NCBI RefSeq assembly: GCF_035083965.1
Contig: NC_089726.1
Span: forward strand, 20,192,059 to 20,256,058
Source of the DNA: Branchiostoma lanceolatum
Lineage: Eukaryota; Chordata; Leptocardii; Amphioxiformes; Branchiostomatidae
DNA: 64,000 nt
Direction of reading: 5' to 3'
Positions 3,561-60,370 of the stretch are shown in pieces. The stretch's first letter is position 1. Each line of letters begins with the position of its first letter. The notes below the pieces were generated by a model, which had not been told where the DNA came from, did no database searches, and worked only from the letters and a program-made list of their open reading frames with translations. A program made the position numbers and the translations under genes.

Positions 3561-4812
3561 TCAAGAAATCGTTTCCGCTTTTCCCCCATGTATAGCCTGA
3601 TTATGACCTATTACTTTTACAGAGCTTGACTGGTCCGGCAGTAGGAGACCCTCCCGGTATAGATGAGTGACGTACTCGTGGGGGGTACAAGACTTCTTAA
3701 TGTCCTTGCAAAGAACGCAGTATGGTTGACAGTAGAACTCACATGTTCCTGAACTTGAATTTGGGCCTTGTGGGAGTTTTGGCTTGTTTTGCTGAAGTCG
3801 GAGATTCCTGTCTCGAAGTAAGGTGAAATAGCACATATGCCACGTCTTCATCCAAGTACAAAACGTCGCATCGATGTGAAATCCGGCATTCCAGGCAGTT
3901 TCTCCTATGTAGATCGGAGCGAAGTCGTCAGACTGCCGATTACACTGAGTTTTCATCGTTGTTTGCAGCCACCGGAAGTGGAGCAGCTCTTCCCGGAAGT
4001 CGCTCCCCGCCATCTTGATCTTCCTCCACAATGTCCGGTTGAAGTGTTCGTAGAGAGCGTAGTCGATGGCGTTGTGCTGTCGATAGTTTTGTATCAGCTG
4101 CTCCGAGAAGGAAGTATTTCCTAGGTCGTACTTATAACTGTTGTATTTAAAGTTAAGAATGTCTTGCATGTCCGAACACAACAGCCGCCTCAGCAGCACC
4201 AAGGATTCATCGAAATACTCCATCACCATCACGAGGTCAAACTCTCGCGAGATCTTGTCGACAAAGTCCCGGATGATGGTGACGTTCTTGGATGATAGGT
4301 TCTTCAGAGGGAAACTCAACTCTAATGCCATGTTGTTTTTTATCAACGTCGCGGAGTTTTTGGTAATATTGTTTTCAAATTTTCCAGGGCTATCAAGGAA
4401 CTTTAGCAGGGCGTTTGGCTCGGGAATACGGAACTTCTTTGCCAGCCTGTAATAGTTGAAGGCAGATGTCAGACGCCCAATCGGCTCCCTGATGATGGTC
4501 ACAAACGTGGCGTTCTCAGACAGCAGTTGTGTTATCCTTGGTCTATCATAGACGGCGTGATGTGTCAAGATGTCGAACTTCTTCCCTTCCGGCGGAAGGT
4601 ATTTTTGGGTGTCCCGAATGCCGTACGGATACAATCCGTTGATGTCTCCCGACTTCGGCAACACGAACGAGAGATTCCGAAGATAGCCGAAGCGCTGGAA
4701 CACTTGCATCATGGTGCTGCTTCCCGTCTTGTGGGTTTTGATGAAGGCAACGTTGGTTTTGGGCTTACAAACACGTAACTGTGATCCTTGGATACGTGGT
4801 ATATAATACACC
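3561..4812 (-). CDS. GAL3ST: galactose-3-O-sulfotransferase (Gal3ST family), catalytic exon 2 of 2
   Basis: This exon carries the lumenal catalytic domain of a Golgi galactose-3-O-sulfotransferase, which moves sulfate from PAPS to the 3-OH of a terminal galactose on glycolipids or glycans. In the spliced 450-residue protein the 5'-phosphosulfate loop is at about 59-67 (KTHKTGSST) and the 3'-phosphate motif at about 138-152 (VTIIREPIGRLTSAF). Both are the PAPS-binding signatures of the family. Cysteine pairs near the C-terminus (CEFYCQPYCVLC) fit the Gal3ST tail. The exon begins after a clear acceptor (TTGTATCATTACAG, AG at 4814-4813); the ATG at 4838 lies inside that pyrimidine tract and is not the start. 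The phase (AG/G, an Arg codon) matches the upstream exon. Length is close to family members (about 420-490). Which paralogue and acceptor specificity cannot be told. Confidence 0.9.
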
Positions 4813-4929
4813 CTGTAATGATACAAGAAGAGAACCATGTTAATTGCAAAGGTTTGGAAATACGTTTGTTATAACAACAATTTATCTAACGACTGTTCCA
4901 GATTCCTAGAATTTTCGTTCTGTTGCTAA

Positions 4930-9994: not shown

Positions 9995-10089
9995 ATTACG
10001 TCATTTCGAACATCGTGGAACAGAGTTCGAATTCGGCTGGACATGGGAGTTTCTGAGCATGAATTTCACCACCGTGTCATTATGTGGAA

Positions 10090-12085
10090 ATATTTTGAAT
10101 GTCATTTCAACTTTATAATTATTTGCCCAGGTGTGCAAAACTTTGGAAATATTAATGTTATGGAATATGATAGTTCAAATAGTTTCTGAATAATGGTAAC
10201 AGCATTCTACCATTTTCTACCATTTTTACAATTATTGGTAACATTTTGTAAATGGGTCAGTGGGATGTGAAGAAAGCAATTCACACATCTTTGCGAATTA
10301 TGCTTGGGCACCATGCATATATGGCTTGCCACAAAGGACCTAACAGTGTCCAGCGGTGAAATCTAAAAATACACAGAGGCAAACAACAGGGCTGGATTAA
10401 CACCTACTTTTATGGGGGCAATTACCCTAATCCACTATTTAGAAAATGTTGTAAACATTTCTCTATATTTCGAGATTTAGAAGAATCACATAGACATTTG
10501 CAAATTATTCTACATAAAGAGATTAGTGTACAATCCCATTCAAAATGTTTGTAATATATTAAATTGGATTGAAAAAAATTCAAATTTTCATGTTAAATCT
10601 TTTTTTAACATTTAGAACTATTGTGACTTAGATATTCTTTTATTCAAAATAATTCAGACTAATTACAAATATCGTTTTATAACCATCTTGGTGTCTTGGA
10701 ACGGACTCTGAACGCACATTGAAAGATGGACTGGTTTGAATTTTTTAACTGACTGAACAGGAAAAAAGTCAAGTTCTTGATAGTGTGATAGATTTGAATC
10801 CTTGAGTCATAAGAATTAAGTTACAATTACCTTTTGTACTTCACTGACCAAACGTTAACATGAAATATACTTATTTATTTTTGTATCAATATTTATGATC
10901 AAGTCTTGTTCTTTTTATTGTAAAGGTATACGGAGACTGGGACAAGAGTAAAGGAAGTAGAATGCTGTTTTAAAGGAGTCCTAAACTCCAGAGGGGGGAG
11001 TTATTTTCCAATAGATGATAATTTTAGGAAATGAAAATGGATATTTTTTACAGTATACGATAAAGTACCCACTAGTACCGTGCGCATCAAAAAGCATTCA
11101 GTATTCTACCAAATTCCCCAGATGACCCTTCATTTTCTGATTAATTAGATTAAACAACCTCAGCCTGTGGCCTAATACAGTGTGCATGACAAGGCCTAAC
11201 AAAAGTTAGATTATAAAAAGAATGTCATGGGGGTTAAGAAAAACTCGTCCTGCTATGTGTTCTTTTATATCTCATTAACAATTGGCCTTCTTATTGTGCT
11301 TAACCATCTTCAGTTATGCTGAAAATATCCACGCTTAACGATGTATGTCTACGCATAGTGAATGCATGGATAGGGTCTGCACGGGTTTAATGAGTATCAT
11401 ATTGTTTATAAAACACACCTTGTGAAATTCAACACAAGCAGAATTCTGTAAAAAGTCGGCTAATTATGTATTCATTGATACATAATCTAGTGGAAAATAA
11501 CATCGTCTTCTGGAGTTTAGGACTCCTTTAAACTGTGCCAGCTTGGAAATTTGGCAGTCAAGTTTTTTTTAGATATTTAATATAAGAATATGAATTTATT
11601 TGAATTCAATTGGATAATTTAGAAATATTTTGAAAGTAACTGCACAACAGCTCTTTATTTAGAATAATTTCTAAATATCTATGTGATTCTTTCACTTTTA
11701 GAAATATTTACAAAAAAATGGAAGAAAATGGTTAACAATGGTATAATGATGATTGCCCCCATAAAAGTAGGTGCTAATCCGGCCCTTCTGTTTGCTTTTG
11801 TATATCTTTAGATTTCACTGCAGGATACTGTAGGGTCCTTTGTGGAAAGCATCATCCCTAAGCTTCGCAAGGATGTGTGAATTGCTTTCTTTCCAGCCCT
11901 CTTACCTATTTATAAAGATGTTACAAATAATTTTAAGAATGGTAAGAAATTGTACATAATGGTAGAATGCTGTTTCCATTATTTAGAAACTGCTTCACAT
12001 ATCACATTCTACGTCATGAATATTTCTAAAGTTTTAGAAAACTTAAGAAATATTTTTAAAGTGGAACTCACATTCAAAATAATTA
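10090..12085. mobile_element. foldback element with imperfect arms of about 450-550 bp
   Basis: The left arm (about 10090-10620) returns in inverted form at about 11600-12085. Matching blocks include ATGTGAAGAAAGCAATTCAC (10266) with GTGAATTGCTTTCTTTCC (11877), TTTTATGGGGGCAATTA (10409) with ATTGCCCCCATAAAAGTAGG (11753), and ACAGCATTCTACCATT (10199) with AATGGTAGAATGCTGT (11958). The arms are diverged, so the element is old. Its centre holds a younger MITE (10974-11527). No transposase is visible. Direct repeats TTGGAACGGAC (10697) and TTGGAATGGAC (12130) lie near both sides but are not placed as clean target duplications. Confidence 0.6.
10974..11527 (-). mobile_element. TTAA-flanked MITE (AGGAGTCCTAAACTCC ends)
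   Basis: The ends are AGGAGTCCTAAACTCCAGA and its complement, and TTAA lies directly outside on both sides (10970-10973 and 11528-11531). That is the target preference of piggyBac and Kolobok. The element is 554 bp and is nested in the centre of the foldback. In reverse orientation it is homologous along its length to the split MITE at 35099-35619 plus 43851-43888, and therefore shows what that site looked like before it was interrupted. No coding sequence. Confidence 0.75.
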
Positions 12086-14408
12086 CAATAAATTCAAAAT
12101 ATTTCTGAATAATAACCCTTGCGGTGACTTGGAATGGACCCTAAAGGGTGTGTGTATGAAAAAGCACACACGTTTGTATAGCTCTCGGGATGTGTGAACA
12201 CGATTGTTGATTCTTCAACCCAAATAGAAAAGCTTTAAAATGATTCTAGATTTCGGTAGGAAGAACTTGAGAACACATAGATTTCCAGTATACTCTTTAG
12301 TTTAGTACAGAAGGTGACCAACTTTATCTCAGCCGGAGACGGCCTAAAGCATCACACCGCCCACCCACCTTCTTTTACAGATGTTAAAACACAAACTATA
12401 CCAGTCAGCCTCTCTACGCCCTTGTAACTCTAAATTCTGAGTCAAAACCCACACACCTAGCGGCTGAACTCTTAGCTTGCGTCAAAGCCGGTGATTTTTA
12501 GCATCTTGTAAAGGGTCACTTGAAAAGCACCTTAATCTAGTTCTTTGCATTAATCGCATGAGTGACAATGACGAAGTCTAGACTAGCGCGAGGTCACACG
12601 CAATGAGATCTGTATCAAATGTAGTCTAACCTGTTTGTTAAGTTAATATGATACGTAGCACTATTGAACTTTGAACTTTCACGTCACATCTGGTACGGGA
12701 GGTCACATTTGAGCCCGATAAACACCACAGCTTGCTTATAAATGAAGACCTTTTTATGGTGGAAATTTCTATTTTCGTGTATTTAGAAATGATAATGTGA
12801 CGTTATAGAGGGACCTCTGCTATAACATACATTGAAGTTCTTCTAACTCAACTCAGCAACGTATTTGAAGGAAATACGGTCTCAGTGCACAATGTCATGG
12901 CTCTTCCAATGACAACATGGTATCCTGACGTGCGCTCTCGTAAAAGACACTAATTTTGTGCTGCAACATTAACGTTCAACCAAATTGATTTAACAAATGC
13001 ACTGACAGTAGTGACTGCGATTGATAATCTGGTAACGTCCATTATCTACCAAACCATTTATCCCACCCCATTCCTACCCGGCGCCCACCTCGACACGTAT
13101 ATATATTTTTCCACCCGAATTAATAACTTTCGGGACAACTTTTTCGTAACTTTTGAGCATAACGTGTGGCAACTGAAAACCAGAAGAAGCATTCAGTGCG
13201 AGAAAGCCTGTCAGGAAGCGCGGAAAACTGTTCTGGTCTTCCGTGATTTAGCAGCAATGGCAGCCATGCCTAATCTCCAAGCAGGTCTACACGCTTGCGA
13301 TCTGCTTGGAGATTAGCCATGCTTTCTTATATGAAAAAAGTGTAACCATAAGTCTATAACATATATATATATATATATATACATTTCTATGTCGCAATGC
13401 AAACATTCCTCAGAGATCTAGAGTTTGTACAGTAAATGTATTCCCACCTGTGAGGCACAAATCGGACGACAATGTTAGGGATATCTTAGTGATGATCCGC
13501 CACGGTATTACTTCTGCATGAAAGGAAGCAGAACCTGTCTGGTCACTCTGGAGGTTATGGTTCCGGGTCGGAGTTCAAATCTGACCAAGGTGTCGGACGC
13601 GTTTGATTCGGAATGTGCGACCTGTGGTCTACCAATGGTCTACCAAAATTTGACATATTCTTTGTTTCATTTAAAAGCTACGACCTTAAAACGCGACCCC
13701 CTGCTGTTTTTCTCGAGAACCATGACTGCGTGACGTCACCGACGCCAACTTTTAAAGAGGCTTTTCTGCCAATATGTAGCACCGAAACGACGGAAAGTCC
13801 TCATAATTTCCAAGCCAAGGGCCTGAGCAGGCTCTCCATTCCGTTTTACCTGTTTTCTTGAAAAGCGATGTCCTGAAAAATGATGTTTTGATCAATTTCC
13901 CTACTGTAACGTTGTTAAGGCCTGCACCTTGGCAAGATAGCCTCAAAACACAGTGTTTTTCACATGACTTTAAGCCTCTGCTGCGGGAAAAGTATTCATC
14001 GCAGATAAGCCAAATTTGGATATATGGTAGATATAACCTTTCTGAAAAATTAAAACATATTCTAAGAAATAATATGCATCTTAACTTATGGTCCGGGTCG
14101 GAGTTCAAATCTGACCAGGGATAGGGCCATGACCCGGTAATCTGCCGGAAGTGCCGTCACTCTGATTTCTGGCCCCTATTGCTTGGTGATCGTTTAAGCT
14201 GTGCATAGATTTTTTGTATCTCCTGAAAAGCCCGTGAGTTGTAGTATTTTTGGGCCTGGTGAAGTTGGTTCGCCATCGAAGACTTGTTTGTATTAGTCCG
14301 CGCCAACGGTGATGCGTGACCCAAATAGCATCGTTTTTAATGCATTTTCACCGAATTTGCGCCATCGGAGATTGCAAAAAAGTTATCAGAAGACTTTTTT
14401 TTATTTTT
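12086..14408. other. no gene seen; scattered short repeats
   Basis: Holds an inverted motif pair CTAATCTCCAAGCAG (13270-13284) and CTGCTTGGAGATTAG (13302-13316), a (TA)n run at 13361-13382, and a direct repeat around CCGGGTCGGAGTTCAAATCT at about 13562-13590 and 14093-14121. The last contains GTTCAAATC, close to a pol III B box. Open frames in 13.0-14.1 kb show no family resemblance. Confidence 0.4.
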
Positions 14409-26606: not shown

Positions 26607-26842
26607 GTGGATTTATCATACATAATCTTTAGATGGGTGTTTTGTGTGGTCTATCAAAGAGCTTTAGATTATACTCATTGTAACAATATTAACACCTTAT
26701 TGCGTAGATTTTACTATTATGCATTATATGAAATTTTACTAATATTGTTATATAGATTTGTGAATCATTCTTCAGGATCGATTCAAGATTTTTGTCTTCT
26801 CAAAAAATCTTGTTTTACTTGTTTGGAAATGTGTGTTTGTGG
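26607..26842 (+). mobile_element. possible LINE reverse-transcriptase remnant, left of the palindrome
   Basis: The open plus frame contains WVFCVVYQRALDY, then NTLLRRFYYYALYEIL, then LLYRFVNHSSGS, which weakly follows the aFD-x-V-x(4)-LL pattern of LINE reverse transcriptases. With the LINE C-terminus on the other side of the palindrome (30560-31275) it suggests one LINE split by the insertion. The match is weak and could be chance. Confidence 0.3.
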
Positions 26843-26880
26843 ACCATAAGTAGAATAGAGGGTTATATAGATCAATTCAT

Positions 26881-27320
26881 GCAAATTTATTCATGAGATG
26901 CAAATTTATGCAAATTTATACGAAATGTAGCCAATGAGCTAAATAACATAAAAAAGTAATTAAACCTTTAATTTATGCATATCAAAAGGATAATTTATGC
27001 AATCTTATCCATCAGATGCAAATCTATGCAAATTTACGCGAAATTAATTAATGAGTTAAGTAACATAAAAAAGGTAATAAAATGTTTTAATTTATGCGTA
27101 ACAAATACATCATTTATGTAAATTCATTCATGAGATGTAAATGTATGCGACAATTGATTAATGAGCTAATCAACAAAAATGGTAATCAAACGCATAGATT
27201 GATGCATAACAAGGATATGATTAATGCGAATGTATTCGTGTGATGCAAATTATTGCGAAATTTAGCTTATGAGCTCATCAACGCGATCAGTTAATCTATG
27301 CATAACTGATAGATGATGTA
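26881..27320 (+). repeat. subterminal tandem repeats, about 118 bp, left arm
   Basis: Four diverged units begin at about 26881, 26999, 27119 and 27236 with GCAAATTTATTCATGAGATG-like text and contain AATGAGCTAA and TTTATGCATA. The mirrored set is at about 29690-30130 in the right arm, where one unit has lost about 30 bp. Such arrays next to transposon ends often bind the element's own protein; that is inference here. Confidence 0.65.
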
Positions 27321-27504
27321 TACATCACTATGTGATAATGTATATGTCGACGGCCAGTGACCCAAAGGGGTCAAACCGGTGGTGACCTGTGACGTAAAGG
27401 GCCAAACCGGTGACGTCACAGCAAGCATCATGGGATCGTACGTTTATCTTCTCTAGAAACATCGCGTATGCACCAGAGTGCCTATATCATCTTCAAAGTG
27501 CTCC

Positions 27505-27565
27505 GGAGTAACTTATTACTCCCGAGTAAGAATTTACTCCGGAGTAGATTATTACTCCGGAGTAA
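27505..27565. promoter_or_regulatory. cluster of TTACTCCGGAGTAA palindromes, left arm
   Basis: Four copies or near copies of the 14-bp perfect palindrome TTACTCCGGAGTAA. Matching clusters lie in the right arm (29468-29535) and just upstream of the zinc-finger gene in the loop (28530-28597). Their placement at both ends of the transcription unit suggests protein-binding sites. Confidence 0.5.
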
Positions 27566-27755
27566 CGTAAATTACATGTAACACAACAACACAAAAGACA
27601 CTAGGATATGGCGACACTCTTTCGTAACACGTACTTTATTCATCACTCATCGATCAATAATGTATCAAGGAAGTCATAAGCCAACGTGTTGTTCGTCCTA
27701 TATGCCCAACATGTGGGAAAGTTGTACGTGCTGTTGGTGTTAGGTCGAAATTGTA

Positions 27756-28334
27756 TTACTTCAGAACGAGGTAGCCATACTTTTTCATCAATGTCTGTTC
27801 TGAGACCCAGTTCTTGCTGTGTACGATCTCATTACTGTGACGAGGAAGCTCAGCAAACTCTATTAGATAAAACTTTTTGCCAGCACGTTTCGTCTCCTTG
27901 ATCACGTGTTGAGGGACATCGCTTGCACGGTGAGTTATTGGAATTGTCCAGTCCCGATAGAGCGTCCACTCGTTCTCGCCACCACTGTCGTAGTCGTACT
28001 CTTCACTTTCATCAGATGATGCCGATTCGGAAGACAGATCTGACGCTGTATCACTCACGGAACCACTTTGATCACTGTCGGTTTCTGTCGTCGAGACTAC
28101 CTCCTGGGGGTCCATCACAGACTCTGCTTCTGAGACGATTTCTTCGTCTTGTGACAATACATGGCCATCGTCGTCGCTGTCTTTTCCACCTTCCTTGACA
28201 TCCGTATCATTTTCAGACGACGTGTCGGAGTCGTCGTCAAAAACATCGCGCTGTCGGTATGACCCCGTCTCGGTATCTACGACGACCTCTCCCGAGACAA
28301 TAGCTGACTCATCTCGGTGTTTTCTTTCTTGATG
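27756..28334 (-). pseudogene. zinc-finger/acidic protein gene, left-arm copy lacking its 5' end
   Basis: On the minus strand the frame starts in mid-gene at HQERKHRDESAIV and continues through an Asp/Glu/Ser-rich middle (for example DDDSDTSSENDTDVKEGG) to a conserved C-terminal part (KKFYLIEFAELPRH, then KNWVSEQTLMKKYGYLVLK) and a stop at 27756. The N-terminal half of the zinc finger is missing, because the CA/GT microsatellite replaces it at the arm boundary. The frame formally extends through the microsatellite, which is not meaningful. The C-terminal part is complete here, unlike in the right arm. Confidence 0.6.
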
Positions 28335-28337
28335 ACA

Positions 28338-28512
28338 CACACACACACGGGCGCACGCGTGCGCACGTGCACAGACACACACAAACATTTTGTGTGTGTC
28401 TGTGCGCTTGTGTGTGAGTGTGTGTGCGTGTGTGTGTGTACTTGTGCGTGTGCGTGTGCGTGCGTGCGCGCACGAGTGCGTGTGTGTATTTGTGTGTGTG
28501 TTTGCGTGTGTG
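28338..28512. repeat. CA/TG microsatellite in the palindrome loop
   Basis: About 50 bases of CA-rich followed by 120 bases of TG-rich sequence, itself partly self-complementary around ACAAACATTTTGTGTG. It sits exactly where the left arm's gene breaks off and may mark the junction at which the inverted copy was made. Confidence 0.7.
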
Positions 28513-28679
28513 TTACTAACCAGTAACACATTTACTCCGGAGTTATGATTTACTCTGGAGTAAAAATTTACTCCAGAGTAAAAATTTACTCCGGAGCATC
28601 TATTTGCATTCATGTTATATCTTTGTGTGTACATCAATATCGCACCATTTTCTTGCTGTCCATTGAACAGAAAGGAAGC

Positions 28680-29171
28680 ATGCCTTACGTCTGCGAGGTT
28701 TGTGATAGGGAGTTTGATCGTAAATTCAACCTCGATCGTCATCAAGAAAGAAAACACCGAGATGAGTCAGCTATTGTCTCGGGAGAGGTCGTCGTAGATA
28801 CCGAGACGGGATCATACCGACAGCGCGATGTTTTTGACGACGACTCCGACACGTCGTCTGAAAATGATACGGATGTCAAGGAAGGTGGAAAAGACAGCGA
28901 CGACGAAGACGATGGCCATGTATTGTCACAAGACGAAGAAATCGTCTCAGAAGCAGAGTCTGTGATGGACCCCCAGGAGGTAGTCTCGACGACAGAAACC
29001 GACAGTGATCAAAGTGGTTCCGTGAGTGATACAGCGTCAGATCTGTCTTCCGAATCGGCATCATCTGATGAAAGTGAAGAGTACGACTACGACAGTGGTG
29101 GCGAGAACGAGTGGACGCTCTATCGGGACTGGACAATTCCAATAACTCACCTGGCAAAAAGTTTTATCTAA
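28680..29171 (+). CDS. C2H2 zinc-finger/acidic protein, right-arm copy, frameshifted near its end
   Basis: Starts at ATG 28680 (MPYVCEVCDREF). One C2H2 finger is complete: C-x2-C-x12-H-x4-H within residues 4-25. It is followed by a long Asp/Glu/Ser-rich region (about residues 40-140) and WTLYRDWTIPITH. Compared with the left-arm copy a 46-bp deletion (between ACTCAC and CTGGCAAAAAG, near 29150) shifts the frame and ends the protein at 163 residues; the C-terminal block is still readable downstream in another frame. It also has a two-residue Asp/Glu insertion. A polyadenylation signal AATAAA lies near 29394. One finger plus an acidic stretch suggests a DNA- or chromatin-binding protein of the transposon. 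I do not recognise the C-terminal domain. The upstream frame from 28545 is not needed. Confidence 0.55.
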   Translation: MPYVCEVCDREFDRKFNLDRHQERKHRDESAIVSGEVVVDTETGSYRQRDVFDDDSDTSSENDTDVKEGGKDSDDEDDGHVLSQDEEIVSEAESVMDPQEVVSTTETDSDQSGSVSDTASDLSSESASSDESEEYDYDSGGENEWTLYRDWTIPITHLAKSFI

Positions 29172-30162
29172 TAGAGTTTGCTGAGCTGCCTCGTCACAGT
29201 AATGAGATCGTACACAGCAAGAACTGGGTCTCAGAACAGACATTGATGAAAAAGTATGGCTACCTCGTTCTGAAGTAATACAATTTCGACCTAACACCAA
29301 CAGCACGTACAACTTTCCCACATGTTGGGCATATAGGACGAACAACACGTTGGCTTATGACTTCCTTGATACATTATTGATCGATGAGTGATGAATAAAG
29401 TACGTGTTACGAAAGAGTGTCGCCATATCCTAGTGTCTTTTGTGTTGTTGTGTTACATGTAATTTACGTTACTCCGGAGTAATAATCTACTCCGGAGTAA
29501 ATTCTTACTCGGGAGTAATAAGTTACTCCGGAGCACTTTGAAGATGATATAGGCACTCTGGTGCATACGCGATGTTTCTAGAGAAGATAAACGTACGATC
29601 CCATGATGCTTGCTGTGACGTCACCGGTTTGGCCCTTTACGTCACAGGTCACCACCGGTTTGACCCCTTTGGGTCACTGGCCGTCGACATATACATTATC
29701 ACATAGTGATGTATACATCATCTATCAGTTATGCATAGATTAACTGATCGCGTTAATGAGCTCATAAGCTAAATTTCGCAATAATTTGCATCACACGAAT
29801 ACATTCGCATTAATCAAATCCTTGTTATGCATCAATCTATGCGTTTGATTACCATTTTTGTTGATTAGCTCATTAATCAATTGTCGCATACATTTACATC
29901 TCATGAATGAATTTACATAAATGATGTATTTGTTACGCATAAATTAAAACATTTAATTACCTTTTTTTTATGTTACTTAACTCATTAATTAATTTCGCGT
30001 AAATTTGCATAGATTTGCATCTGATGGATAAGATTGCATAAATTATCCCTTTGATATGCATAAATTAAAAGGTTCATTGGCTACATTTCGTATAAATTTG
30101 CATAAATTTGCATCTCATGAATAAATTTGCATGAATTGATCTATATAACCCTCTATTCTACT
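29172..30162. other. right-arm remainder of the palindrome
   Basis: Contains the orphaned 3' part of the zinc-finger gene (about 29150-29279), AATAAA, the TTACTCCGGAGTAA cluster (29468-29535), a CRE-like TGACGTCA (about 29616), and the mirrored 118-bp repeats out to the end. Confidence 0.6.
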
Positions 30163-30559
30163 ACCATACTTGTATATTGGCAATGTGGGTTGATGAAATA
30201 ATTGTAGGGATACGGTGCATATTGTTGTTGTATTCATGATGGTTTGTATGATATTAGTTAAAGCAAGATTTTTAGAATTTGAAAGATCCAAATCCTTCTT
30301 ACTTTTAAGAAATCATCATATTGGTAGGTTTGGGCAGAAGCAAGTGGTTATTATAACGTTGTCATATTAACCGCACTCCCATGGAACAACGAATATGTCG
30401 ATTCTGTAATCTAGATAGATCTTCGAACAGAAGCATGATTTGTCATCTCCATTCTATTTTTCAAAATCTGTTTGTGCCTCTTACGATTGTAAAAATCTGG
30501 CCATCTTGTTATCTGCATCAAACGGTGGTGGAAAAACAGACAACGTCAACTTTAATAAT

Positions 30560-32076: not shown

Positions 32077-34215
32077 CCCTATCTAGACCGGGCTTTCGAC
32101 CCCCCCCCTTCATAACCTCCGAACGGTATGCTCTATTATCACCAAATTTGCAGGGAGTGATGTTCACGTGAAGTTTCATAATTTCGGAATGTGTTGTTAG
32201 CGACCCCCTGGGATCCGCCATCTTTGATCGGCCATTTTGAATTTCTTTTAAATACATTTTTTCCATGTAAGACCCCAAATAATCAAAATAGACTAAAAAC
32301 ATTAATCGAAATGTTTCTTGCTAATAAAATTCTAGGTTGTGACGAACTTAAAGGCAAAAAAGCCTGTTTATAAAAAAAATGATGATCTAGTCCGCCATCT
32401 TGGATTTTGAGTCATGACGTCATCAAATTAGCAAAATTTATGAATATTAAATCATGACAGCTACATTAAATCACATATGATGTTATACATTTAGGAAACT
32501 AGTGTGGTTGAGCAAGAAAACATTGGAAACAAGAGTTCTACGACCTCATAACTTCGCCAAATGATCTTAACTTTTATGACTGACGTATTGGGAGTGTTTC
32601 TCATCAATTATGAATCATACCAGTTGGTCGTCTTCACCCAAATAACATAAGTTGTCCAAACTATGACTATGAGCTAAACAAAGAAGGTTATGCTAACATT
32701 TATCATCAATTATGCAAATAAGCTCCTTATTAGCATAATTTGATTCAATGGTGTTCACATTCACACTACTTCCAAATGACACAAGTATGAAATTGCCGTC
32801 ATTAACTAGTATGGAATTATAGTAGTTTGACATTAATTATACAAATTAGTCTACATTTGCATATTTTCTATATATCAACATTCCTATCTACCTCAGTTAC
32901 AAATTTGCATATTTGAATAGTCATATCATGGAACACAGCGGGTTTTTAAATTGCCTCATTAATTATGCAAATTAGAATCTGATTTGCATCATTATCATCC
33001 AATCAAACAAAGCACCACGTAAGTTAAAGAGTTATAGTATTTCTAATTAATTATGCAAAAGAGGCCTTCATTTGCATAGTTGATATTTATTACTATTTCT
33101 CTCTTCCTCTGTCATGTCACATGTTTGAGAGTCCTATTATGGAATTTGGAGGATGTATCAATTTTCATCATTAGTTATGCAAATTAGATACTGATTTGCA
33201 TAATAAGTATTAAATCATGTAAATCATCACTCAAGCTATGCACTTAGCAAAAAGCATGACCACCCATCAAGCCCTTCTTGAGTTATTCCCTTTCACAGTC
33301 TGAAGCAAAACCTGCTCCTGCAGTCCCAGAAAATGCCGCTAGGGTGTCTAAACCGATACCTTTTACTCTCTTTCCAAAGAGCTATCTACCACTCAAAAGT
33401 CGGTTCCATAGCATATCCAAAACATGAGATATCAAAATAGGAATTTCCGCTGCAGTACTTTAACAAGCCGCTAGGGGGCCCAAAATCTAATCATCTTCAG
33501 GTCTCACCAAGACCTACCAACATACCAAATATCAAGACAACCCATCCAGGCATTGTTGAGTTATGCTGGTCTTCTTATACATACAAACGCTACCCTATGC
33601 ATAACCTTCTCGGCGAAGGTAACTACTTGCCTTGAGGAACAGTGCAATTTCACAAGATCAAGATCTGAAAGTCAGTGAGAAGCCAATTTGTGCCAGCCAG
33701 GCTTCACAGTCAAACACCCCTGGCCCAATGGGAATATCTCCTTACTACACCAGTAACACTTCCCCTATACCAGTAACACGTTCCAGCTGGCACCCATGGA
33801 GCTAGTATACACTCATACAATGTAACACATTTGTACACTTTCTCGTTAATTATGCAAAGTACTTCGCCCAAAATCTAATCATCTTGAGATTTCCCACATA
33901 CACATCAACACACCAAATACGACAACAATCCATCCAGGCGTTCTCGACTTATTCTGTTCACTAACAGACACACAGACAAGCATCAAAACATAGACTTCTT
34001 GACGAAGTCAACAACTATGTTTAAATCGAAATAAGTGAAATTTGCATAAAATGCCTCTCCAGAAACCCGTCACCCGTTTTATCATAATATTGTTGCTAAC
34101 AGAATTTCAGGAAAAGTCACCAAGTTTGGTTGTCCTACCATACGTCGTTTGGCAGTTATACGATGTCAAAGTTGGCGCGGGCACTTTTACCCCCCCCCCC
34201 CCGGTCTAGATAGGG
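32077..34215. mobile_element. 2.1-kb non-autonomous piggyBac-like element
   Basis: Ends are CCCTATCTAGACCGG (32077) and CCGGTCTAGATAGGG (34215), each followed inward by C runs, and TTAA flanks both sides. CCC-starting TIRs with TTAA duplications are typical of piggyBac. The inside carries several diverged units of about 180 bp with TAATTATGCAAATTAG and TTTGCATA, and from about 33280 a second repeat family (GCCGCTAGGGGGCCCAAAATC, here given in full as it is 21 bases in the DNA minus its last base: GCCGCTAGGGGGCCCAAAAT) shared with 59940-60360. No transposase. Confidence 0.65.
33280..34010 (+). repeat. dispersed repeat with GCTAGGGGGCCCAAA motifs
   Basis: Contains two internal repeats of CTGCAGTACTTTAACAAGCC-type text followed by GCTAGGGGGCCCAAA, then ATACCAAATATCAAGACAACC and CATCCAGGCATTGTTGAG. 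Related copies are at 34960-35096 (cut by the MITE starting at 35099) and 59940-60370, the last ending in an (ACAG/ACAA)n tail. Type unknown. Confidence 0.55.
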
Positions 34216-35700: not shown

Positions 35701-37276
35701 TAGTTAACTGAAATCCTACGCAACGACTGGACGTGGTGGGCAGTCTGTCCCGGGCTCGAAGTGGGGTCTTCTTACAATGGAGTGTGCGTCCACCGGTGCT
35801 TCGAGCGGCCTTTGGCAGCGTCTTGAGTCCTAGGAGAGGTTTTCTGGACTACCACGACCGAATTTCGGTCAAGGTTTGGCTAGTTAGTGAGCTTGTTTTG
35901 GCTTACAGAGCGGGGGACGTTTTGTTTTTAGGCCGTAACGAGTTTAGTTGACGGCTGTTATTTTCCCGTTTTTCAGTTTTCTGCTTGTGGCTTCGTTTTT
36001 ACGAGTTGGGTTTGTTTCCTGGGGTGTTTTGTAGCTTGTTTTAACCTCGGGGTTTTCTCAAGTGCCTTTTTTAGCGTGTTTTGACGATTTCTCGTTGCAG
36101 CTGTTTTTGTCGACGGGATTTTGGCGGCTTTTTTGCAAGTGGGACATTTGCATTTGTATGCGTGGAGAATTTCTTTTGTTCTCTGGTTTTCGTAACAGGG
36201 TTACTCGGGTGGTTTACAATAAATGGTAAGGGAAGGGTACCTGAGTGGAGCTTTCGGCCTTGGCAAATCGGTGTCCTGGCCCTTGGTCGGATTGGGCCTT
36301 GTTCTGCCCTTTCGATGTAAGTTTCCTTGGGTGGGTAGCGTGTGTTTTGTGTGTTTTGCTTCGGTCATTAAGTGGTGTTGTGTGCCTTTACAGTGATAAG
36401 CCAAGCTCCACGGGTACCCACTGCGAGTTTGCAGGACTTCACACAACAGGCGACCCCGGCAGTCAACACTTCAGAGGCAAGCGGTTCCGCAGCGGACATG
36501 TTTAGCACGTCAGGCAGGCGTTACACCAAGACAGTCGCCGCCGTTGTTCAAGTGCTGGATGGACCTCGTCAGAGTCCAACTCAGCACCCAGAAGGATGGG
36601 ACAAGCGGACACTTGGGGCTGCCTACTCGAGAGATGCAGGACCTGCGGCGATGGCGTGAAGTGGCATCTGCCAGGGCAGCTGACCTGCTGCCACCATTTT
36701 TGTCTGCAGGAATTTTGGCGGGAGTCTGGCGTTCTTGGGTTTTCTTTCTTTGAATCGTATTTCGGTGATTTGCATTTGTATGACGTAGACGCCGGACATG
36801 TTTGTCTGCGTTTTTGTTCTGATTATGCCTGATGCGATACGTTTTGTGTTTTGTTGTCTACAGTTTGGCGTCCTGGAGGCCAGTACTGCCTGTGAAAAGC
36901 TGCCTACCAATTGTGGCGGACAAGAACCTTGCAGTGACAGAGAAGCGATGGTGGAACAAGCTCCGCGTTTGTTTGTAATTTATAGGCGAGGGCTTCAGGC
37001 TTTTCGGAGCTCGTTTCTTTTGAGACGTGTTGTTTGTTAATTTTCCTTTGCTTTGTTTACGAGTGGTTGTCTCATGGGTGTTGTTTATTTTAGGCTGGCA
37101 AGTCACTCCGGAAGATGGGAGACTGCGGTGACAGAAATGACAACCACTTCGACTGCAGCAGTCGCTACCGAGACGGGAGAAAACATGCTGGAGTAGAGAG
37201 GCGTGCGGTGGAGACATTAGGGATGCCGTGGACAACTGTCGAGTAGCAATATGAGGTACGTATTACTGAGAGATTT
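35701..37276 (+). other. possible multi-exon transcript leader of the long element
   Basis: GC-rich blocks alternate with T-rich intron-like blocks. A consensus donor (GAT/GTAAGT, GT at 36317) and an acceptor (GTGTGCCTTTACAG, ending 36392) would bound a 76-bp intron. Further acceptor-like ends are at about 36862 (TTTTGTTGTCTACAG) and 37094 (GTTTATTTTAG). After 36393 a frame of 84 codons is open (SQAPRVPTASLQDFTQQATP onward) but resembles no family I know. Whether this is coding is open. Confidence 0.3.
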
Positions 37277-40200
37277 GTACGTCGTGGTGGTGTTCGTCGA
37301 CGACCCCAGTTGAGTGTTATTTGGCACATTTTAGTGCTAACACTAGCAGAGGGGCAGTCGAGCGGTTGCACACGTGACGTGACAAATGTGTACGTCGTGG
37401 TGTTGTTCGTCGACGTCCCCAGTTGAGTGTTATTTGGCACATTTTAGTGCTAACACTAGCAGAGGGGCAGTCGAGCGGTTGCACACGTGACGTGAGAAAT
37501 TTGTACGTCGTGGTGATGTTCGTCGACGTCCCCAGTTGAGTGTTATTTGGCACATTTTAGTGCTGACACTAGCAGAGGGGCAGTCGAGCGGTGACACACG
37601 TGACGTGACAAATGCGTACGTCGTGGTGGTGTTCGTCGACGTCCCCAGTTGAGTGTTATTTGGCACATTTTAGTGCTAACACTAGCAGAGGGGCAGTCGA
37701 GCGGTTGCACACGTGACGTGAGAAATTTGTACGTCGTGGTGATGTTCGTCGACGTCACCAGTTGAGTGTTATTTGGCATATTTTAGTGCTGACACTAGCT
37801 GAGGGGCAGTCGAGCGGTGACACACGTGACATGACAGATGGGTGCGTCGTGGTGATGTTCGTCGACGTCCCCAGTTCAGTGTTATTTGGCACATTTTAGT
37901 GCTGACACTAGCTGAGGGGCAGTCGAGCGGTGACACACGTGACGTGAGAGATTTGTACGTCGTGGTGATGTTCGTCGACGTCCCCAGTTGAGTGTTATTT
38001 GGCACATTTTAGTGCTGACACTAGCTGAGGGGCAGTCGAGCGGTGACACACGTGACGTGACAGATGTGTGCGTCGTGGTGATGTTCGTCGATGTCCTCAG
38101 TTGAGTGTTATTTGGCACATTTTAGTGCTGACACTAGCTGAGGGGCAGTCGAGCGGTGACGTACGTGACGTGACAAATGTGTACGTCGTGGTGATGTTCG
38201 TCGATGTCCTCAGTTGAGTGTTATTTGGCACATTCTAGTGCTGACACTAGCTGAGGGGCAGTCGAGCGGTGACACACGTGACGTGACAGATGTGTGCGTC
38301 GTGGTGATGTTCGTCGATGTCCTCAGTCGTGTGTTATTTGGCACATTTTAGCGCTGACACTAGCTGAGGGGCAGTCGAGCGGTGACACTCGTAACGTGAC
38401 AGATGTGTACGTCGTGGTGATGTTCGTTGATGTCCCCAGTTGAGTGTTATTTGGCACATTTTAGCGCTGACACTAGCTGAGGGATAGTCGAGCGGTGACA
38501 CACGTAACGTGACAGATGTGTACGTCGTGGTGATGTTCGTCGATGTCCTCAGTTGAGTGTTATTTGGCACATTTTAGTGCTGGCACTAGCTGAGGGACAG
38601 TCGATCGGTGACACACGTGACTTGAGAGGTGCGTACGTCGTGGTGATGTTCGTCGATGCCCTCAGTTGAGTTTTATTTGGCACAGTTGAGTGCTGACACT
38701 AACTGAGGGGCAGTCGAGCGGTGACACATGTGACGTGACAATTGGGCACGTCGTGATGTTCGTTGATGTCCTCGGTTGAGGGTTCTTAGGCACAATTAGT
38801 GTGGGCATTCGCTGTGGGGTAGTCGAGCGTGACACGCGTGACACGAGCAATTTACACGTCGTAGTGGTGTTCGTCGATGTCTTCAGTTGAGTGCTCTTAG
38901 GCGCGATTAACGCGGGCACTTGCTGTGGGGCAGTCGAGTGTGACACGTGACGTGAGAGATGTGTACGTCGTAGTGGTGTTCGTCGATGTCCTCAGTTGAG
39001 TGTTATTTGGCACATTTTAGTGCTGGCACTAGCTGAGGGACAGTCGATCGGTGATACACGTAGCGTGACAGATGTGTACGTCGTGGTGATGTTCGTCGAT
39101 CTCCTCAGTTGAGTGTAGTGTTCTTCGGTACAATTGGCGCGGACGCTCGCTGAGGGGCCTTCGAGTGTGACACCCGTAACATGGGATTTGTGTCGTGGTG
39201 GTGTTCTTTGATGTCCTCAGTTGAGTGTTCCTTTGCACAATTAGTGCGGGCACTCGCGGTTGAGCGTGACACATCGCGAGATCGAGAGTTGCAGACACGT
39301 TACATCGTGCATGTGGTACGTGTCTATGCCCTCAGGGGAGGGGTATCTAGCGCATTTAGTGCGGGCACTCGTGGAGGGGCAGTCGAGCGATACATAGGTT
39401 GAGTGGGAAGGATATAGTAGATCGTGTATATGGTGTCCTCACTGGAGCGTTTTTGGTGCATTTGGTGTGGACACTCGCTGTCGGGCTGTCGAGCGGGACT
39501 CACAGGGCGGGGCTCACGGGCCTCACATCGTGCATGTGGTGTTCGTCCATGTCCCAGTGGTATATTTCTGTGGCACATTTAGTGTGGACACTCACGGTCG
39601 GGCTATCGGGCGTGACTCACAGGACGAGACCCACAGGCTTAACATCGTGCATTTGGTGTCAGTGGAATATTCTTATGACACAGTTTTAGTGCGGACGTTC
39701 GTTGTAGGGTGGTCGAGCGTGATACACATGGCGGGTGTGAAGGGTATACGTCATGCATGTGGTGTCAGTTGATGTCCTTAGTGGAGGGTTTCTTTGGGCA
39801 CAGTTTGTGCGGACACTCGTTGGCGGGCAGAACGAGCGTGATACACATGGTGAGTGTGAAGGGTACACGTCGTTTAGGCGGTGTTCGTCGTTGTCTTCAG
39901 TGGAGTGTTCATTTGGTACGTTTTAGTGCGGGCACACTGACGCGTGACACACATGGTGAGCCTGTGAGGAGATTTACGACGTGCATGTGGTGTCGTCTAT
40001 ATCCTCCGTTGAATGTTATTTGGCACGATCTTAGTACGGATGGCTAATGGCGAGCATGACACACGTGGCGATCGTGAAGGGTTACGTCGTGCATGTGGGG
40101 TTTGTCAATATCCTCGGTAGGGTAGGGTGTTCTTTGGCATGTCTTAGTGCAGGCATTCGTGCATGTGGCACACATCATGCTCGTGAAGGGTGTGTAACGT

Positions 40201-41996: not shown

Positions 41997-42663
41997 TTAA
42001 AGGCAGATCCAAATACATATTGGGTATGTGTGTGGCAGGAGTCGGCGGGTAGGGGCGATGTACGGCTTCAGTCGGTTGTGATGGACTACTTGTTGGCGCT
42101 GGCGACCGGTGTCATGTTGTATACGATACAGGATGGGCGCTGGCTCACCGGGTGGTAGGGTGTTAATGACCGTGAACGGTCCAGTCCAAGGTAGACGGAG
42201 TTTGTACAGTGCTGAAGGTGGATGGTGAAGCCAGACGCGATCGCCGACTCTGTACTGGTGGTGGTTGACACGGGGGGCTTGATGTTGGTCTTGCGTCTGA
42301 TGGGACTGGGCGATGGCGTCGCGGACTGACGTGATGGCTGTCGTCAGGTCGGCCAGGTGTGCTGTTGTGGCTGGTAGCTGACAGGCGACGTCCACTGGTA
42401 GGCGGGCTTCTCGGCCGTGGACGAGGTAGAAAGGAGAGCGCTTGGAGGTGGTGTGGAGGCTGGTGTTGTAGGCCAGGGCGACGTGGGGTAGGATTCTGTC
42501 CCAGTCGTTCTCGCGCCCTGCTAAACACTTCGCAAGTATGTCTTTCATCGTCCGGTTAAATCGCTCGACTTGGCCGTCGCCCTGTGGGTGGTAGGGCGAT
42601 GTGCGCGTTTTACGAATTCCAAGTCGGGTGCAGAGTTCGGAGATGAGGTGCGATTCATACTGT
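41997..42663 (-). pseudogene. Ty3/gypsy integrase C-terminal part (relic)
   Basis: The minus strand encodes the end of a retrotransposon integrase. GPQYESHLISELCTRLGI is followed by TSPYHPQGDGQVERFNRT, the end of the catalytic core with its Glu, and then by the C-terminal QYRVGDRVWL and LPWTGPFTVI (GPF-type motif) to a stop at 41997. The N-terminal zinc-binding part, RNase H, reverse transcriptase and protease are absent. It is joined out of frame to the gag start at 42664. No 3' long terminal repeat is found to the left. Confidence 0.8.
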
Positions 42664-42859
42664 GGCCCTTGGTAGCGTCCGGCAGTTCGGTGTAGTAGCC
42701 GAACGCTGCGCCGGTGAGGTAGGTGGGGAGGTGGCGCAGCTTCGCTGGGTCGTCCAGTGGTTGGGACTCGGCCCAGGCATCGAATTGCTGGCTCCAGAGC
42801 TGGAAGTCGTCGCTCCCGTTGAAGGACGGGGGGAGTCTCGAACGTTGTGCGGCTGCCAT
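42664..42859 (-). pseudogene. Ty3/gypsy gag N-terminal fragment
   Basis: From ATG at 42859 the minus strand reads PPSFNGSDDFQLWSQQFDAW, then LTGAAFGYYTEL, the usual start of a gypsy gag capsid region. After about 65 residues it jumps into the integrase sequence with a change of frame. A primer-binding-like TGGTGGCAGCGG lies just upstream (42902-42891), two bases after an LTR-type end CCACATAACA (42914-42905), which supports gag orientation. The element has lost several kilobases. Confidence 0.7.
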
Positions 42860-42904
42860 GGCGTGGATAAAATATACTCGGAAGTATAGGCCGCTGCCAC
42901 CAAT

Positions 42905-43104
42905 TGTTATGTGGTAAGAACAAGGCTAAGAGAGGCACAGCCGCACACACGGAGATGGACTTCAGACTGACTCCGGACCGCATGGTCGGAGGTTTATCAA
43001 TCAGGGACAGTGCCCTAACTCGTCCCAGATGTCAATTGTGTCATCCCCCCATATTTGGTGAATACTACATGTGTGCTCATTTACGTCCCAGTAAGTGATT
43101 AGGA
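42905..43104 (-). mobile_element. 5' LTR remnant of the gypsy relic (far end not fixed)
   Basis: In minus orientation the LTR would end ...CCACATAACA at 42905, followed by the primer-binding site. The other LTR boundary cannot be set because no second copy is present in the window; 43104 is only a guess at where the sequence character changes. Confidence 0.35.
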
Positions 43105-44956: not shown

Positions 44957-46690
44957 TCGTAAACATGATAAGAAATATAATCTTGAAGTCAATAAAAACA
45001 AGACATTTAGGCTTGAATTTCTAGAAATTCTTGAGGGTAAAAAAATTGTTGAGAAGTAGTTTCTTAACTTAAGAGAATTAAAAAAGTGTTCTTTAATTTG
45101 TGGTGAGAATTTCCATGGAAAGAATCAGACTAATTCTTCTTTTTTTTTCTTTCTTATTCATTCTTAGAATTCTTAATATAAGAAAATTTGTCCACGAGTC
45201 AAGAAAAACGAGAAAAGCTAGAAAAGTAAGAAAATTAATTTTGGTAGTAGAATTCATGATTAAAAACCATTGGCTTGATATGTAAATATGTGTGTATTCA
45301 CCTTAGCTTGTACATAAAACACCGAAATACCATATTTTGCTGATATCATCGCTATTTTGGATTTACCTGTCAAAGAAGACTATTGAAAGTGATGTAAGAA
45401 CAACAATATTTGTGGAGTGAAACGTCTTGTTTTCAATTATCATAATCATAACCATGGCTCAAATCGCTCGACTTTGAAAGACGTTTAGCTGTTATATGCA
45501 CCTTAGCTTGTAACAGAAAAGACTGAAATACCATTCTTATGCTCTGATGTCCCTATCCTCACGTTTTTATTCTATTGACGACATGTACACAGCTGAGCTG
45601 AACTGTGAATCTTTATTCCTGTGTCATGTGAGCTTGAATGCATATGGTGGAGTTAAATAAGTTACTTAGAAGTGAAACAAGTTTCTTAGGCCACAATCGA
45701 CGTGGCTAGTGATACAGGGGTACACGTTGCTTAGGTGGCATTTGAATATACCTGATGATCAATATCTTCTATCTAGGTGCCAGTATCTTCTATCTTGAAT
45801 TTGAAACAATACTGCTTTAATCTGCTGGTGTTTACTACTGTTTTCAATCAAACTGTCAAGGATGATTTTTGATTTAATGCAAACTTGTTATATTAAAGGT
45901 GTCAATAATCAATCATCATGATTATAAACATTGGCTGAATTATTCAATTTTGAGAGATGTCCATAAATGCTGGCTGTATATCATAGTGCAATAAAACAAC
46001 AAACTAAAATATTTTGTCGGTACTGTTTTTCTAATGTTACAGTGAATGACTCAATTATGGACAATATCAACAAATGATATTCTGGTAATATTTGGCCATA
46101 TTTTGCCAAGCTTGCTTGATACAGATGGACACCGTCGAGTTACTAAAATATGATAAGCAGTAATGGTGATTAAACGCATATTTTCAACACCAAAGTGGCC
46201 ATCACATTTATGTGGCGTCGTGTGGCACAAGTGGTAGAGCGCGCCGCTGTCAAACAATGGGACCCGGATCTAATCCCAGGTTGTGCCCAGAGACATGTCC
46301 GAACTTGCGTCCCGACGTGGTGCCCTTGGGAAAGGCACTGAACACGACTTTCCTCACTTCAGTCAGGTGTAAATGAGTACCTAGCTCACCCTGTCATACA
46401 CAATATACATTTATCATAATCAGCCTTAAAGGAAGATCAGTCCCCAGCTTTGAAAAAAGCCAAAAATAGTTTGTAGATTATTATCCTAAAAAAGACTAAG
46501 GAAATATCAAACACATTGAACCTAGCCATTAGAAATACAAATTTCAACATTCTTATGGAATTCTTAGCCTCCTTCGCAGACTCCCTAGAACGGCGGTATA
46601 TATATGGAGGGGATGGGGGGGGGGGGCACACACAAGGGAGTTATGTAGCCGAGGGAGTTGTGTAGCCGAGGGGTGACCGCCGTCCTATCA
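44957..46690 (+). repeat. 1.7-kb repeat, copy 2 (first of a direct pair)
   Basis: Runs from TTTTCGTAAACATGATAAG to the phrase GCCGAGGGGTGACCGCCGTC and matches 47006-48725 almost base for base over most of its length. It includes a SINE at 46212-46386 and, near the end, the left half of the palindromic element seen complete at 48605-48861. Part of it is also related to 14409-16140. No coding sequence. Confidence 0.85.
46212..46386 (+). mobile_element. tRNA-derived SINE
   Basis: Starts GTGGCGTCGTGTGGCACAAG, with an A-box-like TGGCACAAGTGG and a B-box-like GGATCTAATCC, and then the body CTTGGGAAAGGCACTGAAC and CACTTCAGTCAGGTGTAAATG. The same SINE sits at the same place in the sister copy (48239-48416) but not at 14409-16140. 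Confidence 0.8.
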
Positions 46691-47005
46691 AGTCTGCTCC
46701 CGATCGGCTTGAATAAGGGGAAATTTAAAAAAAACACTTAGGGGCTATCGACATGGACTTGTGAACTCCGGCGTCCCGTGGACCCCAATAAACCGCACGC
46801 GCCTCCTCCCGGCAGTGAGTTTTCACGCCCCCGAGTTCACTGATCCGGCCATTTCCTAACGGTCACCGGGGTCAAAATCAGTTTCAAGAAATCAAAACAT
46901 TTTAACTTACCACAGAATGCAAGGATTGTTTTGTTGGCCTACCTACAGGTCACGGAAAGTCAATTTGTTACCAGATACTACCGTCTCTTGCCAAGTAAAT
47001 CAATT
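46691..47005. other. unique spacer between the two direct copies
   Basis: Not repeated elsewhere in the window. Begins right after the centre of the half palindrome. No gene seen. Confidence 0.5.
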
Positions 47006-48725
47006 TTCGTAAACATGATAAGAAAAATAATCTTGAAGTCAATAAAAACAAGAAATTTAGGCTTGAATTTCTAGAAATTTTTGGGGGTAAAAAACTTGTT
47101 GAGAAGTAGTTTCTTAACTTAAAAGGAATTAAGAAAGTGTTATTTAATTTGTGGTGAGAATTTCCATGGAAAGAATCAGACTAATTCTTCAATTTTTTCC
47201 TTCTTATTCCTTCTTAGAATTCTTAATAAAAGAAAATTTGTCCACGAGTCAAGAAAAACGAGAAAAGCTAGAAAAGCAAGAAAATTAATTTTGGTGGTGG
47301 AATTCATAATTATAACCATTGGCTTGATATGTAAATACGTGTATATTCACCTTAGCTTGTACATAAAACACGGAAATACCATATTTTGCTGGTATAATCG
47401 CTATTAAGGATTTACCTGTCAAAGCAGACCATTGAAAGTGATGTAAGAACAACAATATTTGTGGAGTGAAACGTCTTGTTTTCAATTATCATAATCATTA
47501 CCATGGCTCAAATCGCTCGACTTTGAAAGACGTTTAGCTGTTATATGTACCCTAGCTTGTAAAACATAAAAGAATTTTATGCTCTGATGTCCCTATCCTC
47601 GTTCATAATCTCTTGACGACACGGCTGAGCTGAACTGTGAATCTTTATTCCTGTGCCATGTGAGATTGAATGGCGGAGTGATATAATTTACTTAGAAGTG
47701 ATACAAGTTTCCTGGGCCACAATCGACGTGGCTAGTGATACAGGAGTACACGTTGCATAGCTGGCATTTGAATATACCTGATGATCAATATCTTCTATCT
47801 AGGTGCCAGTATCTTTTATCTTGAATTTGAAACAATACTGCTTTAATCTGCTGATGTTTTTACTAATGTTTTCAATGAAACTGTCAAGGATGATTTTTGA
47901 TTTAATGCAAACTTGTAATATTAAAGGTGTCAATAATCAATCATCATGATTATAAACATTGGCTGAATTATTCAATTTTGAGAGATGTCCATAAATGCTA
48001 GCTGTATTTCATAGTGCAATAAAAAAACGAACTGAAATATTTTGTCGGTACTGTTTTTCTAATGTTACAGTGAATGACTCAATAATGGGCAATATCAACA
48101 AATGATATTCTGGTAATATTTGGCCATATTTTGCCAAGCTTGCTTGATACAGATGGACACCGTCGAGTTACTAAAATATGATAAGCAGTAGTGTGATCAA
48201 TCGCATATTTTCAACACCAAAGTGGCAATCACATTTATGTGGCGTCGTCTGGCACAAGTGGTATAGCGCGCGGCTGTCAAACAATGGGACCCGGATCTAA
48301 TCCCAGGTTGTGCCCAGAGACATGTCCGAACTTGCGTCCCGACGTGGTGCCCTTGGGAAAGGCACTGAACACGACTTTCCTCACTTCAGTCAGGTGTAAA
48401 TGAGTACCTAGCTCACCCTGTCATACACAATCTACATTTATTATAATCAGCCTTAAAGGAAGATCAGTCCTCAGCTTTAAAAAAAAGGGAAAAAATTTCG
48501 TTAAAATAGTTTGTAGATTATAATCCTAAAATAGACTAAGGAAATACCAAACACATTGAACCTAGCCATTAGAAATACAAATTTCAACAATCCTATGGAA
48601 TTCTTAGCCTCCTTCGCAGACTTCCTAGAACGGCGGCATATGTATGGGGGGGGGGGGGGGGCACACACAAGGGAGTTATGTAGCCGAGGGAGTTGTGTTA
48701 CAAGCCGAGGGGTGACCGCCGTCCT
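47006..48725 (+). repeat. 1.7-kb repeat, copy 3 (second of the direct pair); tail continues at 48875-49080
   Basis: Same order of parts as 44957-46690. Beyond the palindromic element the family continues (48871-49080, for example TAACAAGACACTCACATGTGC and CTGCTGAATACTGTATATAC), as in copy 1 at 15985-16135, so this copy is the more complete one on the right. Confidence 0.85.
48239..48416 (+). mobile_element. tRNA-derived SINE
   Basis: Same insertion as at 46212-46386, duplicated with its host repeat; differs by a few substitutions (for example GTCGTCTGGCACAAGTGGTA). Confidence 0.8.
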
Positions 48726-48861
48726 TGATAGGGCGGCGGTCACCCCTCGGCTACACAACTCCCTCGGCTACATAACACCCTTGTGTGCCCCCCCCCCCAC
48801 CACACATATGCCCCCCCCCCCCACATATGCCGCCGTTCTAGGAAGTCTGCGAAGGAGGCTA
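48605..48861. mobile_element. 257-bp palindromic element with 9-bp target duplications
   Basis: Ends are TAGCCTCCTTCGCAGAC (48605-48621) and GTCTGCGAAGGAGGCTA (48845-48861), and the arms are complementary nearly to the centre (about 48728), interrupted by G/C runs. TGGAATTCT occurs immediately outside both ends (48596-48604 and 48862-48870). The related copy at 15960-15990 lacks the element, so the host sequence is known. A 9-bp duplication fits Mutator-like elements. The left half alone is present at 46565-46690, and a right end at about 63258-63293. Confidence 0.8.
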
Positions 48862-59719: not shown

Positions 59720-60370
59720 CGCAAGCCGGTGTTTTTTAATTAATTATGCAAATCAGGAATTTATTTGCATAATTGGTATCTGTTGATGCTCCACTTTCAA
59801 TAAACCACATGTTACATGTATGTGAGTCTTATAATGGAAAACACTGCAAATGTAGATTTTCCTCGTTAGTTATGCAAATCAAGTCGCAATTAGCATAATT
59901 TGCACTTCATTGTGTACATCTCTGTCTAAGCTACCTGCATACTAAATATGATGGAAATCCGTCTTTCCTTTGTTCAGTTATTCCCCTTAGAAGATTTTCA
60001 CAATAACGCCACTGCAGTTCCATAGTAAGCTGCTAGGGGGCCCAAACCTACACCCTTTCTTAATTACATCACAAGCTATCTGTCACCCAAAAATCAAGAC
60101 CATAGCACGTCCAGGTCAAAAGATACAAAAATTGAAGTTCTGCTGCAGTACCAAGGTCACATACCAGGGGGCCCAAAATCGACCTTAAACTTCGGCTTCA
60201 CAACACCTACCCACATACCAAATATCATCGTGATCCATCAAAAGGTTCCTGAGTTATGCTGACTACAGTAGTGCGGAAACACAAACAGACAGACAAACAA
60301 ACAGACAAACAAACACACACACAGACACACCCAAAACTATATCTCCATTTTTGATGGAGATAATAATTAT
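59720..60370 (+). repeat. dispersed repeat with GCTAGGGGGCCCAAA motifs and (ACAG/ACAA) tail
   Basis: Starts with inverted TTATGCAAATCAGG and TTTGCATAATTGG units, continues through AAGCTGCTAGGGGGCCCAAA and CATACCAGGGGGCCCAAAAT, and ends in ACAGACAGACAAACAAACAG-type sequence and a small hairpin ATCTCCATTTTTGATGGAGAT. Related to the inside of the element at 32077-34215. Confidence 0.6.

Follow-up and report, generated by a model that had tools for sequence, protein, structure and literature searches.

Within the 64,000-nucleotide stretch of DNA analysed here (hereafter the window), positions 26849-30162 hold an element of 3314 bp whose two halves are near-perfect mirror images of each other (Table 1). 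Both arms start with AGTAGAATAG, and either of them, read from the outside inward, begins with AGTAGAATAGAGGGTTATAT, so that the ends of the element are AG...CT. When the arms were aligned with each other, 1410 of the 1416 aligned bases were identical; the differences are six mismatches and five indels, the right arm being without 26 and 46 bp and the left arm without 1, 2 and 6 bp. Together the arms take up 2913 of the 3314 bp (about 88%), which makes the element a Foldback-type palindrome as a structural description only. An exact 6-bp repeat, ACCATA, abuts both ends. The initial annotation had described this palindrome, with arms of 1488 and 1425 bp, AG...CT ends and ACCATA outside both of them, and every part of that description was confirmed by the alignment or the sequence itself. 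The structure is far beyond chance, because separate searches of the window on either side of the element gave, as the longest inverted pair, one of only 141 nt at 77%. The palindrome and its 6-bp duplication are thus real. A search for a paralogous empty site within the window found none, returning a single 20-bp match (E 0.15).

Table 1. Features of the palindromic element, in window coordinates
Feature	Position	Strand	Remarks
Left target-site duplication	26843..26848		ACCATA
Left arm	26849..28336		1488 bp; mirror image of the right arm
End motif AGTAGA	26849..26854	+	5/6 of the Maverick motif (AGT)2 as described in PMC8097293
AT-rich subterminal tandem repeats	26867..27282		Units of about 108-119 bp; rich in ATGCAAAT
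CTCCGGAG palindrome array	27501..27566		18-bp spacing; downstream of the left gene copy
AATAAA after the left gene copy	27635	-	Equivalent of the right signal at 29394
Left gene copy	27756..28336	-	5' end cut off in mid-finger; open frame ending with the stop at 27756
Imperfect CA/TG microsatellite	28337..28513		~177 bp, read from sequence; junction of left arm and spacer
Single-copy spacer (loop)	28337..28737		401 bp
CTCCGGAG-type palindrome array	28530..28596		In the spacer, upstream of the right gene copy
Right gene copy	28680..29171	+	ATG, complete C2H2 finger, then 46-bp absence and frameshift; 163 aa
Right arm	28738..30162		1425 bp
AATAAA polyadenylation-like signal	29394..29399	+	After the right gene copy
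CTCCGGAG palindrome array	29470..29533		Downstream of the right gene copy
Right target-site duplication	30163..30168		ACCATA

Degenerate repeats with units of about 108-119 bp make up the outer ~400 bp of both arms; they were detected with Tandem Repeats Finder in the left arm and by self-alignment in the right one. Six copies of the octamer ATGCAAAT lie in the outermost 472 bp of the left arm, against a shuffle mean of 0.3 (none of 500 shuffles reaches this count), and this enriched octamer is reminiscent of the Oct-1/NFIII sites of adenovirus origins. We nevertheless dropped these octamers as origin-like evidence, because the other 60.7 kb of the window hold 20 further copies, eight of them at 32.7-33.2 kb. 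The copies outside the element include two clusters, at 32712-33194 (8 of 20) and 59746-59872 (3 of 20). TTGGC, an NFI half site, showed no enrichment in the same outer 472 bp, with 219 of 500 shuffles reaching the observed count.

Tandem Repeats Finder called the CA/TG microsatellite at the start of the spacer over 28391-28513. Except for the CTCCGGAG array, nothing in the spacer matches the arms at E 1e-3. Eight of the nine copies of CTCCGGAG in the window lie within the element, where the arrays, with their 18-bp spacing, bracket the gene; the array is a candidate binding site for the finger protein, which we put forward as a suggestion only.

The zinc-finger gene and its two copies

The ATG of the right gene copy, at 28680, lies 58 bp before the start of the right arm at 28738, so that the CxxC half of its finger is single-copy: the spacer (28337-28737) holds the start codon together with the 5' flank and the first half of the finger. 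The finger has the canonical C2H2 spacing and matches the Pfam model zf-C2H2 (E 7e-5) with 23.5 bits, just below the curated cut-off of 25.2. An acidic, serine-rich middle comes after it. The copy then stops at 29171, after 163 residues, because 46 bp that are present in the left copy are absent; we infer a loss from the right copy and not an insertion into the left one. The left copy is broken at its other end. The left arm begins (28336) at the first zinc-binding His, in mid-finger, and its copy is therefore without the start codon and the CxxC half of the right one, while its frame stays open through the 46-bp segment until the stop at 27756. As they stand, both copies are defective, and neither is intact.

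These breakpoints change the picture given in the initial annotation, in which each arm carried the same zinc-finger gene, lying wholly inside the TIR and present twice. The left arm holds a headless copy, the right copy starts in the spacer, and the gene straddles the border between spacer and right arm. The outward orientation of both copies, also proposed there, was confirmed.

Two substitutions between the arms fall inside the gene, both at third codon positions; selection on the gene was set aside, as n = 2 is too few. The left frame is also open into the CA-repeat, giving a 210-aa ORF at 27756-28388 (-) with an ATG at 28388. Its repeat-encoded residues have a C-x-C-x12-H-x4-H spacing (counted by eye), probably by chance.

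Family affiliation and searches for relatives

A non-autonomous derivative would be without the genes for polymerase B, integrase and capsid. We found no polB, retroviral-type integrase or capsid gene among the ORFs of 120 aa or more in the element, which holds 2 of the window's 16 ORFs of at least that length. Since these two are versions of the one zinc-finger gene, the earlier view of the element as non-autonomous is supported as far as the element itself shows. In Pfam both gene copies matched C2H2 finger models, and the remaining matches were insignificant.

A possible affiliation with Polintons was judged from ends, duplication and TIRs. Vertebrate Mavericks are described as having the end motifs (AGT)2//(ACT)2 or (AG)3//(CT)3, 6-bp duplications and TIRs of 46-1447 bp (PMC8097293), and 6-bp duplications are given as typical of the retroviral-type integrases of Polinton-like viruses (PMC12220804). 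At this one insertion the duplication is 6 bp long and exact on both sides. The termini are AG...CT, and the full ends, AGTAGA...TCTACT, agree with (AGT)2//(ACT)2 at five of six positions and not exactly (AGTAGA, not AGTAGT), a match to (AGT)2 or (AG)3 that about 1% of 6-mers equal. The arms are long, the right one (1425 bp) at the top of the vertebrate range and the left one (1488 bp) just above it. The Polinton-type ends claimed in the initial annotation are thus slightly strengthened, because AGTAGA agrees with the Maverick motif at these five positions and the 6-bp duplication fits. Some adintoviruses, moreover, are reported to carry zinc-finger genes (PMC11071296). Unlike the element, with its 3.3 kb and no core genes, the vertebrate Mavericks described in the same source as the motifs span 12.7-24.6 kb and carry core genes (PMC8097293); the element also differs from them in that its arms make up ~88% of its length and enclose a partial gene. 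Judged from its duplication, its AG/CT ends and its near-match to (AGT)2, the element is likely, if unproven, to be affiliated with Polintons, and we are fairly confident that this is the best choice of family. The palindrome is real and non-autonomous, and probably of Polinton type; its arms have diverged little and its gene is broken.

Searches returned no credible relatives in viral contigs or prokaryote genomes. The right-copy protein gave 22 candidate stretches in the viral contigs and the left-copy frame 32 in the prokaryote genomes, with no relative among either, and the terminal 20-mer of the element had 0 matches in the viral contigs. The C-terminal piece had a single tblastn match among the viral contigs (38% over query residues 14-52), which we rejected because its ORF was taken, by eye, for a phage terminase. 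The PDB was searched by sequence with the finger, which found ordinary C2H2 fingers, and with the C-terminal piece, which found one match only (E 1.5), the acidic middle not being included. In PHROGs the right copy had no match and the left copy one weak match (E 0.18). Outside the finger, then, there was no significant similarity in Pfam or PHROGs for either copy, or in the PDB for the C-terminal piece. Rfam placed 0 families on 26800-30200.

Origin of the palindrome

The two halves of the element are not equivalent. Only on the right does the sequence run without a break from the spacer, through the 5' flank of the gene, into the arm. On the left the arm terminates halfway through the finger (28336), exactly at the start of the CA microsatellite, with GATGAC common to both sides before they diverge. 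One end is therefore present twice, inverted, around a loop that is continuous with one arm. This is the shape of an asymmetric snapback product. AAV replicates by a rolling hairpin and not by protein priming, which limits any analogy with it to the shape of the product. Within this limit, the arm-plus-loop layout resembles that of AAV asymmetric snapback genomes, a shape described for AAV subgenomes in which one end occurs twice, inverted, around a single-strand loop and with a partial gene; those subgenomes are packaged, whereas the element is a chromosomal insertion with a 6-bp duplication (PMC8235507).

We tentatively favor an origin by asymmetric snapback, in which one end of a larger element gave rise to a non-autonomous insertion of Polinton/Maverick type. 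The near identity of the arms (1410/1416) and the exact duplication directly outside AGTAGA...TCTACT argue for this origin; the lack of polB, integrase and capsid genes, the failure to find a parent in the viral contigs and prokaryote genomes searched, the inexact end motif and a left arm that exceeds the published Maverick TIR range argue against it. A related case is that of the Maverick-related EMALE virophages, of which three truncated ones among 33 resolved are said to have kept TIRs that 'must have regenerated' (PMC8547959). They resemble the element in truncation followed by TIR restoration, and differ from it in that the shortest complete EMALE has 5.5 kb, the duplications are mostly 3-5 bp, and a palindromic gene-in-arm layout is not among the features described in the part of that source drawn on here (PMC8547959). 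No Polinton, Maverick or adintovirus with defective interfering or snapback genomes was among the literature matches listed.

While the palindrome, its ends, the duplication, the loop and the breakpoints in the gene are observed directly, we infer a parent element, its protein-primed replication, a fold-back event and integration in trans. A strand would start at the right terminus of the parent and grow inward, copying first the end repeats, then the zinc-finger gene with its 5' flank, and running into the CA-repeat. The 3' end of this strand would then fold back, pair over perhaps two bases (AC) at a GAC inside the finger codons, and copy its own strand back to the terminus. The product would have two identical arms and one unpaired 401-nt loop. 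Of its two genes, the one reaching from the loop into the right arm would be complete and the one in the left arm truncated at the 5' end. Both ends would now carry the terminal signal, and an integrase acting in trans could therefore insert the product with a 6-bp duplication. The arms would have diverged afterwards by six substitutions and five indels, and the 46-bp loss would have broken the right copy.

In a single copy, snapback before integration and extension of the TIRs in place give the same anatomy; nor does one copy demonstrate movement of the palindrome as such, so that the transposition as nearly pure inverted repeat proposed in the initial annotation is no more than a possibility. 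In the latter case, a longer Polinton with ordinary TIRs would have inserted here and the palindrome would have formed after integration: a double-strand break inside the Polinton, invasion of the right TIR by the left TIR during repair, copying inward to mid-gene, joining to the CA-repeat by short microhomology and loss of the interior, all of which would leave the 6-bp duplication intact. Galileo, a P-superfamily transposon with 7-bp duplications, offers a parallel in its TIRs. Like the element, these Foldback-like transposons have long, internally repetitive TIRs that take up internal and ORF sequence; the non-TIR segments recruited are reported to include 69 bp of ORF, and abortive gap repair with template switching has been proposed for defective Galileo copies (PMC4168063). 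If extension took place in situ, the outer part of the arm should be older than the inner part, and we therefore tested how the differences between the arms are distributed. The outer 472 bp hold 7 of the 11 events (naive p 0.03) and, counting substitutions alone, four of six (p 0.085), as this explanation would have it. Yet once every breakpoint was scanned the gradient was not significant (p 0.20, or 0.48 with substitutions only), and an age gradient along the arms was set aside. The long interior must also have vanished cleanly, with both ends staying exact. Overall we consider extension in place, the main rival explanation, somewhat unlikely.

It is distinctly unlikely that the element is instead unrelated to Polintons and a non-autonomous member of some other DDE superfamily that has long inverted repeats and makes 6-bp duplications. 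No Polinton gene is seen in the element, and IS3EU and GingerRoot share the 6-bp duplication with it, but the termini of IS3EU are given as always TA..TA and those of GingerRoot as mostly TA..TA and occasionally TG..CA (PMC10045372), whereas here they are AG..CT. Ginger1 and Ginger2 fit no better, with termini TGTNR and duplications of 4-5 bp (PMC2836005) against AGTAG and 6 bp. The comparison with other superfamilies covered IS3EU, GingerRoot and Ginger. Long palindromes are a known class of artefact, but a sequencing or assembly error that duplicated one arm in inverted orientation is very improbable here, the arms differing by six substitutions and five indels, the outer flanks being unlike each other and an exact 6-bp duplication lying directly outside both ends.

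The element is of interest mainly because its fold-back anatomy may record how such elements replicate. The protein-primed replication of Polintons is an inference resting largely on their genes, and a palindrome folded back from one end would be a footprint of Polinton replication in a chromosome. Asymmetric snapback would also account for the origin of small non-autonomous Polintons that still possess two usable ends although most of the element is gone, and it would have a searchable signature, a single arm/spacer breakpoint common to many insertions. One may go further and regard the element as the integrated snapback genome, of defective-interfering type, of an animal Polinton, which we think unlikely. 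If true, it would be chromosomal evidence that Polintons replicate as linear molecules from their ends and that they shed end-derived palindromes, which are integrated in trans; the matching inverted gene copies could then yield double-stranded RNA against the parent.

The remainder of the window

Elsewhere in the window, two tandem single-ORF genes of BTB-BACK-Kelch (KLHL) type by Pfam, closely similar by eye, occupy 53101-54807 and 55928-57535 (+), and a 425-aa ORF at 3561-4838 (-) belongs to the galactose-3-O-sulfotransferase family (Pfam E 1e-59). A fragment of a retrotransposon-type integrase (Integrase_p58_C, E 1e-8) is found at 41997-42983 (-), and 17.7 tandem copies of a 113-bp unit at 37267-39254, within a region (about 36-43 kb) where the GC skew is strongly positive. 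Two smaller inverted structures were also seen. The repeats at 10085-10225 and 11947-12087 are 77-86% complementary, with further pairs inward and outward, and are possibly two opposed retrotransposon fragments or a decayed foldback element. The pair at 46614-46692 and 48724-48802, 79 nt long, 94% complementary and 2 kb apart, may be a MITE-type element.
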